Shown here: in pieces, positions 3,206-19,815 of the stretch
Position numbering within the stretch: position 1 is the stretch's first letter
Layout: each line of letters begins with the position of its first letter
Source of the DNA: Pseudovibrio sp. Ad37
Lineage (GTDB): Bacteria; Pseudomonadota; Alphaproteobacteria; Rhizobiales; Stappiaceae
Direction of reading: 5' to 3'
DNA length: 64,000 nucleotides
Assembly (NCBI RefSeq): GCF_001623075.1
Contig: NZ_LMCF01000032.1
Span: 1 to 64,000 of the forward strand
Position numbers and translations under genes: made by a program
Notes under the pieces: generated by a model
Told to the model about the DNA's origin: nothing
The model's input: only the letters and a program-made list of their open reading frames with translations
Databases searched by the model: none

Positions 3206-4201
3206 CTACTCCGCAGGCATAAGCTTCTTTGCCTCTGTCTCTCCTTGCTTGGACATAAGCTGTTCAAAGAATTGGATTGTTTTGACCAGGCCCTCGCGCA
3301 GCTCTGTGGTTGGGCGCCAGCCCAGATAATCCCGGGCGCGGGTGATGTCAGGTTTGCGCTGGAGCGGATCATCCTGAGGTAGAGGCTCCCTGATGATCCG
3401 GGATTTGGACCCGGTTAGCTCCAGCACAAGCTCTGCGAGTTGCTTGATGGTGAATTCCTTGGGATTGCCGATGTTGACCGGCATGGAAATGTGGTCTGGC
3501 GCGTTCATCAGTTTGATCATCCCGTCCACCAGATCATCGCGGTAACAGAAAGAACGGGTTTGCATGCCGTCGCCGTACAGTGTGATCGGCTTGGTCGTCA
3601 GTGCTTGCATGATGAAGTTGGAAACCACGCGCCCGTCATTAGGGTGCATGCGTGGGCCATAGGTGTTGAAGATCCGCATAACCCTAATGTTGATGTTGTT
3701 CTGGCGGTAGTAGTCGTAAAACAGCGTCTCTGCGCAGCGTTTTCCCTCGTCATAACAAGAGCGTACTCCAATGGGGTTCACGTTGCCCCAGTACTCTTCT
3801 GGTTGCGGGTGAACCTGCGGGTCGCCATATATTTCTGAAGTGGAAGCTTGCAGGATCTTAGCCTTAATCCGCTTTGCCAGCCCCAGCATATTGATGGCAC
3901 CGAGCACGCTGGTCTTGGTGGTCTGCACAGGGTCAAACTGATAGTGAACGGGAGAAGCCGGACACGCCAGATTATAAATTTCATCGACCTCAACAAACAG
4001 TGGCTGGCACACATCGTGTCGTAAAAGCTCAAACCGTTTGTGGTCCAGCAGGTGTTCCACATTCATGCGGGTGCCAGTGAAGAAGTTATCGAGGCACAGC
4101 ACTTCGTGGCCCGCCTCCAAAAGTGTCTCACTGAGATAAGAGCCCAGAAAGCCTGAACCTCCTGTCACAAGAATTCTGCGCCGATCATCAAGTGAGAACA
4201 T
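3206..4201 (-). CDS. UDP-glucuronate decarboxylase-like NAD-dependent epimerase/dehydratase
   Basis: A 331-residue extended SDR. Sequence features are the Rossmann motif [12 protein letters not shown] at the start, CLDNFFTG binding the cofactor ribose, [15 protein letters not shown], the catalytic Ser/Thr in [10 protein letters not shown], and YDEGKR carrying the Tyr-x-x-x-Lys pair. [17 protein letters not shown] and [16 protein letters not shown] are hallmarks of UDP-xylose synthase (UDP-glucuronate decarboxylase) rather than GalE. It would turn UDP-glucuronate into UDP-xylose for envelope or exopolysaccharide. The ATG at 4201 is preferred over an upstream TTG at 4225. It converges with the SDR gene and stands alone. 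No glycosyltransferase neighbours are present. Confidence 0.85.
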
Positions 4202-4491
4202 GAGGCCAATCCGCAATACCGCCAAAGATTGGAAAAGCCTATCAGCCTGCCTTCTGACGTAAATATTGAAAAACCTCTCCCGAAAATTGGGCCCCGATAA
4301 ATTGCAATGTTTTCAACGGTATGAAAGCTCACAGGTGTTTGTTGAGCAAAATTCAAATAAATGTGCTGGTTGAAGGTTTGCTCACAGCGGCATGGCTGTT
4401 AGCATTACCCGTAGATCTTCTCACGCCTCGCGCGGCTTCTCTGTTCCCCAAATTTGAGAGGTTCACGCCAACAGCTTGTTGCAGGGCCTTA

Positions 4492-11546: not shown

Positions 11547-12045
11547 CTAGGAATCTCCTCACTACATCGGTCGCCTGTTCCCCAACAGCGCCGATTTGAA
11601 TACATTATCTCAATAGGAATTGGAGTTCACCTCAACTGAAGGGCAAACCCAAAAAATTGCATATTTTCCTGAGAGCAACGCAAAATAGAAATTATTTCGC
11701 CCATTAGCAGCTCCCCACGAGTGGCTTTATGCTCAGTTCCCCTCACTGCTGGCAGATACGCATTTCCCGGTACGCACTCTAACGTAGTTTCTCTCTTATT
11801 CAATTGTATTCTTCGCAAGAAATGCTCGCTGCATCATATCCTGGGGGAAATGTAGCTAGATCGTTTGGCTAGGAAGCTTGCACAATCCTAGGCTTTGCAA
11901 GCTTTTTAAGTAGTTTTGCGTCCAATAAAATTTCCAAGGAAAAACATCTGAATCATTCGGAGTCACTATTAACCAAATTTGAGAGTAATTAGTTAGGTAT
12001 TCATAACCCATACTCTTTGTAGGGCAGAGTCTTCGGGTGGGGCAT
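11547..12045. other. intergenic region between divergent oppA and HAD-UbiA genes
   Basis: About 500 bases with no convincing gene. It must contain the oppA promoter and the promoter of the HAD-UbiA gene. The only clear structure is an inverted repeat AAGCTTGC (11874-11881) and GCAAGCTT (11897-11904) followed by TTT, which resembles a plus-strand terminator or leader hairpin. Confidence 0.6.
11874..11907 (+). terminator. terminator-like leader hairpin
   Basis: Perfect 8-bp arms AAGCTTGC and GCAAGCTT, loop of 15 bases, then a run giving five consecutive T. No plus-strand gene ends upstream of it, so it would terminate either a small RNA or the leader of the HAD-UbiA transcript. CTAGG (11869-11873) can instead pair with CCTAG (11887-11891), a weak alternative fold. 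Confidence 0.4.
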
Positions 12046-13524
12046 ATGGAAGATATTCAGAGACTTCAGAGGTCGGGGGAACCTGAATTACAACTCCCGC
12101 TTATATTAGATCTTGATCACACGCTGATACGGACGGATTGCTTTTTTGAAGCACTTATTCTGTTCCTCAAATCAAACCCTTTGAACCTATTCGTAGTTTT
12201 TTATTGGCTCATTCGCGGGCGTGCCTATGTAAAACAGCAACTGGCTATTCGTGTAGATTTAAAAATCGATAATTTACCATTGAACGAAGATGTTGTTGCC
12301 TATGCTCGTGCAGAAGCTGGCAAAGGACGTGACGTTCATATGGCGACTGCTGCTGATAACGTTCTGGCCATCGCAGTTGCCAGTCGGCTCAGCTTTGTTG
12401 ATGAAGTTCATGCCAGCAACGGCAAGATCAATCTAAAATCAGGCAATAAAGCTAGCTATCTGGAACAAAGGTTTCCGGATGGTTTTGCGTATGCTGGTGA
12501 TAATGTTTCCGATCTGCCTGTCTTTAAAAGCGCTGTCCGCTCCCTAATTGTCCACCCCTCCGACAGTTTATCTCAAAAAGCGATGCGATGTGGTGAGGTA
12601 GAAAAGACTTTTGTAAGACCTGATGGTTTTTTTCGGCCTCTCCTGAATAGTTTGCGCCTCCACCAGTGGGCAAAGAACACGCTGCTCTTTGTGCCTCTTA
12701 TTCTGGGTGGTCAGGCTTTGAACCCTGAAGCATGGGCGAGTGCGGTACTGGGCTTTGTGGCTCTCGGCATTCTTGCAAGCTCCACTTATTTGTTGAATGA
12801 CCTTTGGGATCTTGAAGCGGATCGCCAGCATTGGAGCAAGAAGGCAAGGCCACTGGCATCGGGCAAGCTGAAGATCGCCCATGCTATGTTGGCCATCCCT
12901 CTGGGGTTTGCTCTAAGCTTTGCCATCGCGGCGATGTTAGGGCCCTTCGTCGTACCGGGGCTTTTCGCTTATTTGGTAACAACGGTTGCCTATTCCTTTT
13001 ATTTGAAGCGCGTACCATTGCTCGACACCGCTGTTCTGGCCGTGTTGTTCACAATGCGTCTTGGGGTTGGTGTAACGCTGGTTGATGTGCCGCCCTCCCC
13101 CTGGCTCTTTGTCTTCTCTATGTATTTGTTCCTCTCGCTGTCTTTGGCAAAACGCCATACGGAGCTTGGTCGCCATGTGGAGGCTGGTACAAATGGGGAG
13201 ATGTCCGGGCGCGGGTATCGAAACAGAGATTTGCCGATGTTGCTTGCACTCGGCTCGGCAAGTGGATTGGCAGCAACGCTGGTTATGGTGCTTTACCTAA
13301 CCAATGAAGCATTCAACGCCAACTTTTATTCTGCAGCTGTGCTTTTGTGGGGCATGCCACCCATTTTGTTTCTTTGGCTTGGTCGCGTCTGGCTGAAATG
13401 CCAGAGACTGGAACTGAACGATGACCCTGTGGTCTTCGCGTTAAAGGATAAGCAGAGCCTCGTGCTTGGCGGTATGCTGGCCATTCTGTTCTTGTTTGCC
13501 TGGTTCGGAGGCTATTTGATCTGA
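12046..13524 (+). CDS. HAD phosphatase-UbiA prenyltransferase fusion
   Basis: A 492-residue two-domain protein. Residues about 20-195 are a HAD hydrolase: LDLDHTLIRTD is motif I, MATAADN motif II, and YAGDNVSDLPVF motif IV. Residues about 205-490 are a UbiA-type membrane prenyltransferase: LRLHQWAKNTLLFVPL, the first Asp motif NDLWDLEADRQHWSKKARPLASG, and about eight helices. This layout matches decaprenyl-phosphate phosphoribosyltransferase-like proteins, in which a phosphatase would remove the 5-phosphate of the product. GTG at 12037 is an alternative start. It overlaps the GtrA gene by one base. Role in making a polyprenyl-phosphate-sugar donor is inferred. Confidence 0.8.
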   Translation: MEDIQRLQRSGEPELQLPLILDLDHTLIRTDCFFEALILFLKSNPLNLFVVFYWLIRGRAYVKQQLAIRVDLKIDNLPLNEDVVAYARAEAGKGRDVHMATAADNVLAIAVASRLSFVDEVHASNGKINLKSGNKASYLEQRFPDGFAYAGDNVSDLPVFKSAVRSLIVHPSDSLSQKAMRCGEVEKTFVRPDGFFRPLLNSLRLHQWAKNTLLFVPLILGGQALNPEAWASAVLGFVALGILASSTYLLNDLWDLEADRQHWSKKARPLASGKLKIAHAMLAIPLGFALSFAIAAMLGPFVVPGLFAYLVTTVAYSFYLKRVPLLDTAVLAVLFTMRLGVGVTLVDVPPSPWLFVFSMYLFLSLSLAKRHTELGRHVEAGTNGEMSGRGYRNRDLPMLLALGSASGLAATLVMVLYLTNEAFNANFYSAAVLLWGMPPILFLWLGRVWLKCQRLELNDDPVVFALKDKQSLVLGGMLAILFLFAWFGGYLI

Positions 13525-13973
13525 TGGTTGCCGCTCGCCTTGCCGCGCTGAAATCTTCTTATGACACCAGCCCAGAGTTCAGGCAGATCATCCGCTTTTT
13601 GTTAGCTGGTGGTCTTGCTGCTTTTGTAAACTGGCTGTTGCGGATTGCACTGTCTGTGTTCATGCCGTTTTGGCTGGCGGTGTTGCTGGCCTATTTCATC
13701 GGAATGAGTGTCGGATACGCCCTCTATAAGCATTTTGTGTTTGTAGGGGCGCAGAAACCCGAAAGCATCAAACGACAGGTACTGATCTTTCTTGGGGTGA
13801 ACCTGTTCTCTGCTCTCATCGTGCTTGGGCTGTCTGTTGGTTTAAATGCAATGCTTATGACAACCCTGCCGCTCTTTATCGCGCAGGCACTCGCACATGG
13901 TGTTGCCATCGCGGTTGGAGCGGTGACAAACTATCTGGGTCATAAGGTGATCACTTTCCGCCAAACTCGATAG
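13524..13973 (+). CDS. GtrA-family membrane protein
   Basis: A 149-residue membrane protein with four predicted helices and the GtrA pattern: IRFLLAGGLAAFVNWLLRI near the N-terminus, SVGYALYKHFVF in the middle, and NYLGHKVITFR at the C-terminus. GtrA proteins are proposed flippases or accessory factors for polyprenyl-phosphate-linked sugars. Its ATG overlaps the stop of the HAD-UbiA gene (TGATG), so the two are translationally coupled. This supports a joint role in making and moving a lipid-linked sugar. Confidence 0.88.
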   Translation: MVAARLAALKSSYDTSPEFRQIIRFLLAGGLAAFVNWLLRIALSVFMPFWLAVLLAYFIGMSVGYALYKHFVFVGAQKPESIKRQVLIFLGVNLFSALIVLGLSVGLNAMLMTTLPLFIAQALAHGVAIAVGAVTNYLGHKVITFRQTR

Positions 13974-13981
13974 AACCTGGT

Positions 13982-15223
13982 TCAACCGTTTGCCACAAAA
14001 GCAAGCGCTTGCATGGCGACGTTGAGAAACAAAGCTTGCGCCACAAGCATAGCGAAGATCCCCATGTTGTCTTGTCGCACGGTGCGCACAACGAAGAGCA
14101 TCATGAGCGGGAGCCAGTCCAGCACGTAGCGCTGCACGGAATACTGAGAGAAGCCGTTGGAGTGGTAGAACAGTGTCATTCCTGCGATGAGAGCGATTGT
14201 TAGCCCTGCAAAAAGGTATTCCCGGTTCCATTTGGCGAGGAAGAAGTAAAGCAGGAACGGGGCGCCGATGAAGAGCGCTATGCCCTTGTCGCCAAAGCCG
14301 CTCATTTGCGTCAGGTATTTGCCTGAAAACTCTATATCCGGTCCTTGCACGAAGAAGTGGACCAGGTTGAAGAGCAGATAATCCCGATGGAACAAGCCCA
14401 GCTCTTGAACACGATCCTCAATCCATGACGCAGATGGATCACCCAGAGCATCCCATTCTGGTGGGAAAATGTATGCATACCCAGTTTGCATAGGATCGCC
14501 GAAGCGGGCGTAATTGTAAGCAAAGTAGATGCCAATTGCGATTGCAGGAAAGACTGCGAGTTTGAGCAGGCGCCCAATACTCTCAGCATTGATTGCAAAG
14601 ATGGACCTGTCTGGTGGCGTCATCAAAACAAAAAAGAACGGCATGTAAAGAATGCTCATCTGCCGGGTGAGGAATGCGAGACCGATAAACAATCCCACAA
14701 GCCAAGCATTTCTCTTGATGAGCGCTGACCAGAGTGCCAGTGACGTCAACATTGCAGCAACGGCTTGCGCAAAGAACCAGACACCATCGGCGCGGAGCAC
14801 AGTGTATTGCAGCGGTGTTGCAAAAAGAAACGCTGCGACAAGCAATAGAGCCAGTCGGTAGTCTGTCTGGTAGTTGCGCGTAATTTGCCACCACAACAGT
14901 CCGGTAATGAAAAAGCAAATCAGCCCCAGAGCAATAAAGTGATGAAACCCTACACCCAATACGGCCACAAATGGCAGAGCGATCAAGGCTGGTACAGGGG
15001 GGAATATGACAAAGATCTTGTCTTCGAAAAGCGCACAGTCCAGATCAAAGCAGCGCGAAGCCTCAAAGCGGCCTTGCAAAAAAGCCTCTGCAAGCAAGGC
15101 GTAAGAATTGCTTTCTGGCTGCTCCCCAATCATGCGGAAAACAATGACTGCCAGAAGAATGGAAACCAAACCAGCAAGAATTGTTGTGAGGAGTGCGCCT
15201 CTAAAACGTTCAATCGAAATCAT
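13982..15223 (-). CDS. GT-C-like polytopic membrane protein (probable glycosyltransferase)
   Basis: A 413-residue protein with about ten membrane helices. The first periplasmic loop has ALLAEAFLQGRFEASRCFDLDC, the place where GT-C enzymes (GT39/GT83-like) carry catalytic acidic residues, followed by FEDKIFVIFPPVPALIALP, a common pattern of bacterial members. Such enzymes move a sugar from a polyprenyl-phosphate donor to an envelope acceptor. It converges with GtrA with only 8 bases between them. ATG 15223 follows a GGGGGG run; an upstream TTG at 15235 is possible. Exact family uncertain. Confidence 0.65.
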   Translation of the reverse strand: MISIERFRGALLTTILAGLVSILLAVIVFRMIGEQPESNSYALLAEAFLQGRFEASRCFDLDCALFEDKIFVIFPPVPALIALPFVAVLGVGFHHFIALGLICFFITGLLWWQITRNYQTDYRLALLLVAAFLFATPLQYTVLRADGVWFFAQAVAAMLTSLALWSALIKRNAWLVGLFIGLAFLTRQMSILYMPFFFVLMTPPDRSIFAINAESIGRLLKLAVFPAIAIGIYFAYNYARFGDPMQTGYAYIFPPEWDALGDPSASWIEDRVQELGLFHRDYLLFNLVHFFVQGPDIEFSGKYLTQMSGFGDKGIALFIGAPFLLYFFLAKWNREYLFAGLTIALIAGMTLFYHSNGFSQYSVQRYVLDWLPLMMLFVVRTVRQDNMGIFAMLVAQALFLNVAMQALAFVANG

Positions 15224-15527
15224 AATGCCCCCCAAATATGGGAGAGTAATAACATCAAGAATCCTAGTGTCTTCTTAAAGGGGTGCAAGAGGACTAAAAT
15301 TGGCACGAAGCTCTCGCAAAAGTAACCGAGATAAAAACATTCTCGGTGCTAACTCCTCAAAGAACATCATTGATTACAATTCATCTCATTTCTTGATTTC
15401 ATGTTTGTTGCCTGATAGGTGAAAGGTGTTGCTCCCACAGACTTTGCCGCAATCGCGGTAGATCCATGGTGTTGGGTTTTTAAAAATAAACCCGCAAATT
15501 TGCCAGGATTGAAACAGGAATATCCAG
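15224..15527. other. intergenic region between divergent genes
   Basis: About 300 AT-rich bases between the GT-C-like gene and the Bcr/CflA gene. It must hold both promoters; I see no convincing gene, repeat or RNA structure. Confidence 0.5.
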
Positions 15528-18626: not shown

Positions 18627-19815
18627 GGGCATTATCAACCAAAGACAGCTATTTCGCTATATTAGGCTATTTATGCTATCCTGTGTCAATCGTGAGATGA
18701 GAGGTATGCATGTCAGAAACATTGTCTTTAGTTCTGGAGTCCATTCGTACTTTAGATGATATGGTTCTGGCTTTTCAGAGCGAGGACAAATGCAGTCAGC
18801 TTGTTGAGAGCATGGTATGGCCTAAAGGGCGGATTTGCCCTGCATGTGGCTATAAGCATTCGATCTCACTTGCTGATCAAGATAGTGGCCGAGGACGATT
18901 ACGACCAGGCTTGTATCAGTGCTCAAACAGTCATTGTCGCTTCCAGTTTACAGTCACCACGCGCACGCCGTTGCATGCTACCAAGCTCCCGTTGCAGATC
19001 TGGTTGAAAGCAATGTGGCTCATTTTACAGTCTGATAAGGGCCTGTCTTCCGTACGGCTGGCAGAAGCTTTAGGTGTTAGTCAGCCAACAGCCTGGCGTA
19101 TGGGGCACGCTATTCGTTTGCTGACCGCGCAGGAGCATTTGCTGGATGGCACTGTCGAAACAGATCACTTTTATCTAGGTGGCAACCCTCCGAAAAAGCG
19201 GAATGTACCGCCTCCTGGACGTGGAAGAAAAGGGAAGAAGAAAACCGCTAAAACACCAATTCTTTCAATGGTTCAGAGGCCACAGTCAACAGAAGTTGGT
19301 AGCCCTGCAGGTCATGCCCGCGCAAGTGTCGTTGCTGATCTTTCAGCCGTGGAGGCAAGTCGTGTCTTTGGCCAGGAACTGGACCTGCAAGCGAACTTGA
19401 TGAGCGATGACTGGACAGCCTTTGCAGCCCTTGGTCACAACTTCAGCGACCATCAAACAGTAAATCACTCAAAGGATGAATATGTTCGCGGAGCGGTACA
19501 TATAAACTCCAGTGAGGGTTTTAGCTCCAGAGTCAGACGAACCGTATCCGGTGTTTTTCATCATATCAGCACGGCCCATGCTGATCTTTACATGCATGAA
19601 ATTGGCTTCCGTTGGTCACAACGTGTTGTAAAGGGGCAGGCTGTCAGGCAAAGCCGCAATGGCAAGAAAAAACTTAGAACCATATGGTCACGTGTTCCTC
19701 CTGCCCTGCAAATCGCAAAACTGCTGCGCAATGCTGTTGGGCGTCAAATGCGACGGACCCAGCAAGGTGGTATTTCCGTCAGATCCGAGATAGCTGTCTT
19801 TGGTTGATAATGGCC
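18627..19815 (+). mobile_element. complete IS1595-family insertion sequence, 1189 bp
   Basis: The left end begins GGGCATTATCAACCAAAGAC and the right end read in reverse begins GGCCATTATCAACCAAAGAC; identity continues through AGCTAT, so terminal repeats of about 26 bases differ at one or two positions. Both begin with GG, as IS1595-family ends do. An exact 8-bp duplication (TGCTGGAA) flanks the element. One intact transposase occupies most of it and its stop lies in the right repeat. Near-identical ends and duplication indicate a recent or still active insertion. Confidence 0.92.
18710..19807 (+). CDS. IS1595-family transposase (ISXO2-like DDE/N)
   Basis: A 365-residue transposase. The N-terminal zinc ribbon has CPACGYKH and CSNSHCRFQF. 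A helical region includes LPLQIWLKAMWLILQSDKGLSSVRLAEALGVSQPTAWRM. The catalytic core has VETDHFYLGG (first acid), SDDWTAFA (second acid) and HINSSEGFSSRVRR (the Asn/Glu segment that marks ISXO2-like enzymes). ATG 18710 follows GAGAGG. The frame is intact, so the enzyme may be functional. A basic insert rich in Gly-Lys-Arg (about 165-180) lies after the first acidic motif. Confidence 0.92.
   Translation: MSETLSLVLESIRTLDDMVLAFQSEDKCSQLVESMVWPKGRICPACGYKHSISLADQDSGRGRLRPGLYQCSNSHCRFQFTVTTRTPLHATKLPLQIWLKAMWLILQSDKGLSSVRLAEALGVSQPTAWRMGHAIRLLTAQEHLLDGTVETDHFYLGGNPPKKRNVPPPGRGRKGKKKTAKTPILSMVQRPQSTEVGSPAGHARASVVADLSAVEASRVFGQELDLQANLMSDDWTAFAALGHNFSDHQTVNHSKDEYVRGAVHINSSEGFSSRVRRTVSGVFHHISTAHADLYMHEIGFRWSQRVVKGQAVRQSRNGKKKLRTIWSRVPPALQIAKLLRNAVGRQMRRTQQGGISVRSEIAVFG

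Follow-up and report, generated by a model that had tools for sequence, protein, structure and literature searches.

A HAD-UbiA fusion, a GtrA-type protein and a candidate GT-C enzyme as a putative ribofuranosylation module in Pseudovibrio

A putative three-component system

We investigated three genes in a 64,000-nucleotide stretch of contig NZ_LMCF01000032.1 (hereafter the window), which encode a fusion of a HAD phosphatase-like domain to a UbiA-type domain, a GtrA-type protein and a convergently transcribed membrane protein of probable GT-C type (Table 1). The source organism is a Pseudovibrio, the fusion protein being 96-97% identical to its counterparts in P. ascidiaceicola and Pseudovibrio sp. 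Alg231-02. We propose, with a probability of roughly 70%, that the trio is a three-component periplasmic ribofuranosylation system. The UbiA domain would act as a polyprenyl-phosphate phosphoribosyltransferase with phosphoribosyl pyrophosphate (PRPP) as donor, and the fused HAD domain would remove the 5'-phosphate to give polyprenyl-phosphate-ribofuranose. GtrA would then flip this lipid to the periplasmic face of the inner membrane, where the GT-C protein would take it as donor and transfer ribofuranose to an envelope glycan. The two reactions of the fusion are predicted by analogy with Citrobacter youngae ORF15, a HAD-UbiA fusion whose product, polyprenyl-phosphate-ribofuranose, serves a flippase and a periplasmic GT-C according to the main text of Kelly et al. 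(PNAS 2024; PMC11127046); what GtrA and the GT-C protein are proposed to do follows from their families and co-occurrence, and ribose as the probable final sugar from a missing epimerase. The domain make-up of the fusion, its catalytic motifs and modelled fold, the absence of DprE1 and the joint inheritance of the trio are documented below. The general pathway drawn in the initial annotation of this DNA has largely been in print since 2024; what is added here is a GT-C protein of a rare family that tracks the HAD-UbiA fusion, and a GtrA-type variant of the pathway that is free of DprE1.

The HAD-UbiA fusion

The fusion product of 492 to 495 amino acids passes the NF006088/PRK08238 model (580.8 bits, cut-off 351) over residues 15 to 490, numbered here from the GTG at 12037. 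Its UbiA Pfam domain (PF01040) occupies residues 226 to 450, and the UbiA half scores 132.5 bits against the decaprenyl-phosphate phosphoribosyltransferase model. The only phmmer matches are the Mycobacterium tuberculosis DPPRS structures 8j8j and 8j8k, which also take the top two places (TM-score by target 0.78 and 0.81) in a Foldseek search with an AlphaFold model built from nine sequences (mean predicted local distance difference test score, pLDDT, 79.1), while the HAD half of the model matches phosphoserine phosphatases. Model coverage and fold thus both support the fused architecture originally described. The HAD motif LDLDHTL begins at residue 24, with D25 as predicted nucleophile, and the UbiA domain carries NDLWDLEAD (residues 254 to 262; N254/D255/D258/D262) and AKRHTE (371 to 376; R373/E376). 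Compared by motif rather than by alignment, these match D18; N247, D248, D251 and D255; and R366 and E369 of ORF15, a protein in which D18A gave mainly 5-phosphorylated product, loop II alanine variants lost in vitro activity and R366A and E369A retained some (Kelly et al., 2024, main text). The NDxxDxxxD motif is present in 42 of 43 collected homologues, the exception being a divergent sequence (G140), and the strict HAD pattern in 29 of the 43; the others lack the HAD domain, are truncated or are variants.

Co-occurrence of the three genes

Three genome sets were surveyed, comprising the window's own genome with its relatives (41 genomes), 385 genomes of the class and 398 of the phylum. Among the 41, the GT-C family was found in 10 genomes and HAD-UbiA in 11, all 10 GT-C carriers having the fusion; in the eleventh fusion-bearing genome (G418), DprE1 and DprE2 adjoin the fusion and the GT-C family is absent. 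At class level the four GT-C genomes all fall within the 36 that encode HAD-UbiA, and at phylum level the family was found in two genomes, the window's own and G504, which has the same convergent trio. This gives 14 distinct GT-C genomes, and HAD-UbiA lies directly beside GtrA in every one of them. Convergent orientation of the GT-C gene is seen in 12 of the 14 carriers, and in G420 and G421 this gene stands on a different contig from HAD-UbiA and gtrA. A plasmid of Devosia neptuniae (NZ_CP104964.1; L183, 6971-10153), a root-nodule isolate, carries the trio in co-directional order with 49% identity for the fusion and 50.5% for the GT-C protein. Coupling therefore outlasts both a change of strand and physical separation, and comparative genomics bears out that GtrA and the GT-C protein are linked to the fusion, as the initial annotation had put forward from the window. 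Chance figures computed for the co-occurrence take no account of relatedness, and we place no weight on them.

Outside these genomes the family is scarce. The Devosia plasmid is one of two GT-C records among 72,556 plasmids, the other being a plasmid of Flammeovirgaceae bacterium SG7u.111 (CP139022.1; L186, 9001-10029) with a 29.7% identical homologue among polysaccharide genes, adjoining an O-antigen ligase-family gene and acyltransferases. A single partial match, spanning 43% of the query at 31% identity, was obtained from 50,697 phage records. In a tree of 43 HAD-UbiA sequences, the 13 GT-C-associated entries fall in one group of 18 (99/99) together with L009, L011 and three DprE1-bearing entries; the bootstrap of this tree had not settled and an independent-pairs test of GT-C against DprE1 had one to two pairs, and we treat the mutual exclusion of GT-C and DprE1 as an observation, not a proven rule.

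DprE1 and the predicted sugar

In the scheme given in the main text of Kelly et al. (2024), the bare pathway leads to ribofuranose, ORF13 diverts it to xylofuranose, and DprE1/E2 homologues accompany arabinofuranose. The absence of the oxidase DprE1 had been noted for the window and holds genome-wide: the best score to the DprE1 model NF053785 is 56.5 bits, PF04030 has no match in the whole genome, and a Methylocystis DprE1-like query (359.7 bits to the model) retrieved nothing credible from it (E 0.0102, with stops). Within the 36 HAD-UbiA genomes of the class, the DprE1 model scores 163 to 430 bits in 21 and at most 81.5 bits or nothing in 15. This high/low split is our own cut, none reaching the curated 500 bits, and in G292 the 163 bits belong to a fragment lying at the edge of a contig. 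All 13 GT-C carriers tested genome-wide, G504 and Devosia not among them, fall in the low group and lack DprE1, with 56.5 bits in the window's own genome and at most 65.7 bits in the others. The epimerase test covers DprE1; DprE2 was not searched separately, short-chain dehydrogenases being too numerous to discriminate. With DprE1 absent and ribofuranose the product of the bare pathway, the final sugar is most simply read as ribose, consistent with the earlier suggestion of ribose rather than arabinose. A working rule may be suggested, by which HAD-UbiA without DprE1 points to ribose (or xylose) and HAD-UbiA with DprE1 to arabinose.

Clusters of the second kind are found in Methylocystis sp. 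H62 (L012), Bosea sp. 117 (L010) and G418 (L096), which share the fusion family and a nearby GtrA-type protein with the window but, unlike it, carry DprE1/DprE2 next door, and are therefore probably arabinose versions; the Methylocystis neighbourhood comprises the fusion, DprE1, DprE2 and GtrA. The window's GT-C family, absent from G418, also had no match in the fetched stretches of L010 and L012 (a genome-wide search was not made). On a plasmid of Rhizobium sp. CCGE531 (NZ_CP032687.1; L185, 6007-10542), the genes after HAD-UbiA encode an NAD(P)-dependent oxidoreductase and a large hypothetical protein, and further along come genes for an SMR transporter and an epimerase; this may be an epimerised version.

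It is conceivable, though unlikely, that the pathway is as proposed and the sugar another, an unlinked short-chain dehydrogenase epimerising the lipid-linked ribofuranose before flipping, to xylofuranose as with Citrobacter ORF13. The main text of Kelly et al. (2024) describes ORF13 alone as turning ribose to xylose and the Citrobacter GT-C as accepting both, and the window contains a conceivable sugar epimerase, an NAD-dependent, LegB-like (123 bits) epimerase/dehydratase encoded at 3206-4225 (-), which is syntenic in the three other module-bearing Pseudovibrio whose fetched stretch reaches that far. However, this gene is ~8 kb from the module with seven genes between, and has no homologue in the stretches fetched around HAD-UbiA or GT-C from G420, G421, G121, G225, G311, G504 and Devosia (a genome-wide search for ORF13 was not made).

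The GT-C candidate

The convergent gene encodes a protein of ~413 amino acids with about ten hydrophobic segments in a simple hydropathy scan. It had been called GT-C-like, a designation that receives weak support: the window protein scores 22.9 bits against PMT_2, below the 26.1 cut-off, two of seven orthologues scanned separately exceed it (29.2 and 27.3 bits), and matches to PMT_2 at E <=0.1 are seen for 9 of 13 members of the family. Ten members share 82 invariant positions, including, past the first hydrophobic segment, E38, C62, D64, D66 and C67 and, close to the C-terminus, H358, N360, G361, Q364, R369 and D373. Because the proposed catalytic Asp follows the first transmembrane helix in several GT-C structures (Kelly et al., 2024, main text), E38, D64 and D66 are candidate catalytic residues. 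Comparison of the family profile with membrane proteins near other HAD-UbiA genes gave weak matches, to a 713-amino-acid protein of L009 (probability 37%, E 0.00035), to L101 (probability 8%, E 0.004), L102 (E 0.072) and L011 (E 0.85), next to E 0.86 for an MFS control protein. The L009 protein also has a weak match to NF047440 (putative glycosyltransferase); in this gammaproteobacterial metagenome-assembled genome (8959-12975) the fusion, GtrA and the 713-amino-acid protein stand in a row, with a glycogen phosphorylase adjacent. The Devosia neptuniae plasmid homologue is annotated as 'hypothetical protein'.

HAD-UbiA and GtrA could instead make and flip the donor for a glycosyltransferase other than the convergent protein, which lies on the opposite strand, is unlinked in G420 and G421, and yielded a failed fold model. 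We consider this improbable, as the GT-C family occurs only in HAD-UbiA genomes (14/14), is encoded in one direction with both other genes in Devosia, and is absent from the eight Pseudovibrio without HAD-UbiA. The unlinked GT-C genes gave no hint of an acceptor, their neighbours encoding a methyltransferase, a DUF2155 protein, an amidase and one matchless protein in G420, and three matchless proteins in G421. As for the first step of the pathway, an aromatic or other prenyltransferase in the UbiA half together with an inactive HAD domain is highly improbable. The initial annotation had set this case against its own proposal, and the sequence speaks against it: the weak generic similarity to ubiA_proteo (TIGR01474, 4-hydroxybenzoate polyprenyltransferase; 33.1 bits) lies far below the 275.45 cut-off and below the phosphoribosyltransferase score, the HAD motif is preserved, DPPRS is the nearest solved fold, and two further UbiA proteins in the genome pass the 4-hydroxybenzoate octaprenyltransferase (386.9 bits) and heme o synthase models, making the fusion dispensable for quinone and heme o synthesis.

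Several observations weigh against the proposed periplasmic ribofuranosylation system. Next to the trio we recognised no cluster for glycan biosynthesis, and the carriers belong to five or six lineages of Pseudomonadota only. The GT-C assignment draws on weak PMT_2 matches; AlphaFold modelling of the protein with five close orthologues failed (mean pLDDT 40.8), and a profile of 13 sequences found no PDB chain at E <=1. In one exception to the pairing, no HAD-UbiA gene was found within 9 kb of the Flammeovirgaceae homologue, and the GT-C family perhaps uses other donors too. Finally, of the eight fusion-gene copies in Pseudovibrio, L008/L116 (G389) and L120 (G388) are interrupted, one by a frame change towards the end of the UbiA domain and the other by an early in-frame stop, reflecting either a dispensable system or assembly errors.

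Comparison with known systems

The trio resembles the Citrobacter ORF15/ORF14/ORF12 system in its HAD-UbiA fusion with the same domain order and catalytic residues, in its small membrane flippase candidate and GT-C candidate, and in lacking DprE1. It differs in the type of flippase candidate, GtrA here and the small MATE/EmrE-like ORF14 there, and in its GT-C, which is ~413 amino acids long and convergent here, whereas ORF12 (GT136 of C. youngae O1/O2; Kelly et al., 2024, main text) has 652 amino acids including a C-terminal carbohydrate-binding module; by description, the window protein has no room for such a module. Unlike in Citrobacter, no O-antigen cluster was recognised around the trio. 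Two class genomes (G301 and G342) encode HAD-UbiA followed by a 124-amino-acid EamA/SMR-like protein, the matches in G301 being below cut-offs; this order resembles the Citrobacter flippase arrangement, whereas the window belongs to the GtrA group.

The UbiA half is homologous to Rv3806c of the mycobacterial decaprenyl-phosphoryl-arabinose pathway (Rv3806c, Rv3807c, DprE1/DprE2 and Rv3789), but the phosphatase is a fused HAD domain here and the separate Rv3807c there, and DprE1 is absent here. A GtrA-type flippase candidate and a candidate GT-C enzyme with a lipid-linked sugar also recall GtrA-GtrB-Gtr glucosylation in Shigella and Salmonella. In contrast to the UDP-sugar-dependent GtrB, the predicted donor synthase here is a HAD-UbiA phosphoribosyltransferase using PRPP (compare Kelly et al., 2024, main text); the genes adjoining gtrA in the window are HAD-UbiA and GT-C, no search for GtrB having been made. 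GtrA is named once in the main text of Kelly et al. (2024), for the Shigella system; supplementary figures S11-S12 of that study list more candidate systems, and a GtrA version may be among them. No other account of a HAD-UbiA pentofuranose pathway was found in the literature searched, and no Pseudovibrio lipopolysaccharide or O-antigen structure was described in the titles or abstract openings of that literature.

The proposed system would extend a recently described periplasmic pentofuranose route to alphaproteobacteria, where it would involve another type of flippase and a GT-C family without assigned function. More tentatively, and with slightly less than even confidence, we suggest that the convergent protein is the founder of a GT-C ribofuranosyltransferase family of its own, separate from GT136. 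It would work with GtrA as flippase and an epimerase-free HAD-UbiA synthase, in a module that marine bacteria gain and lose as a unit and that would decorate an undescribed envelope glycan.

Gain or loss within Pseudovibrio and gene layout

HAD-UbiA and GT-C are both present in 8 of 16 Pseudovibrio genomes and both absent in the other 8. In one relative (G387), the two genes flanking the module in the window, oppA and the MFS gene, are adjacent with none of the trio between them, and alignable DNA ends at ~11813 and restarts at ~15389 in window coordinates. This clean empty site is one of six stretches tried, the other five (L176-L180) not showing the MFS flank. All-or-none presence together with an empty site provides a natural comparison for finding the glycan.

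Table 1. Coordinates of the module and its parts in the window.
Feature	Position	Strand	Basis or remark
HAD-UbiA fusion gene	12046-13524	+	ATG start; inside GTG-started open reading frame 12037-13524
HAD (phosphoribose-phosphatase-like) domain	12046-12624	+	NF006088 from residue 15; DxD motif; Foldseek phosphoserine phosphatases; domain end approximate
Predicted UbiA-type polyprenyl-phosphate phosphoribosyltransferase domain	12625-13524	+	PF01040; 132.5 bits to decaprenyl-phosphate phosphoribosyltransferase; 8j8j/8j8k by sequence and fold; motifs
gtrA, GtrA/DPMS transmembrane-domain protein, candidate flippase of lipid-linked sugar	13524-13973	+	PF04138, 56.8 bits
GT-C-type membrane protein, candidate periplasmic ribofuranosyltransferase	13982-15223	-	Weak PMT_2; co-occurrence with HAD-UbiA
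Stretch missing from the syntenic site of G387	11814-15388	n/a	Flanks adjacent and alignment break; bounds approximate

All three genes lie where the initial annotation had placed them. The ATG of the fusion gene is three codons inside the mechanically called GTG frame and is likelier to be the start than the GTG, because the purine-rich GGGTGGGG precedes it. The fusion gene and gtrA overlap by one base (TGATG, 13522-13526), and the stop of the convergent GT-C gene is 8 bases past that of gtrA. The GT-C gene has its ATG four codons inside a TTG-started minus-strand frame, preceded by GGGGGG. G+C content is 0.46-0.54 over 6-22 kb, with no foreign signature seen around the module. An IS1595-family transposase gene lies at 18710-19807 (+), not at the module edges but ~3.5 kb away.

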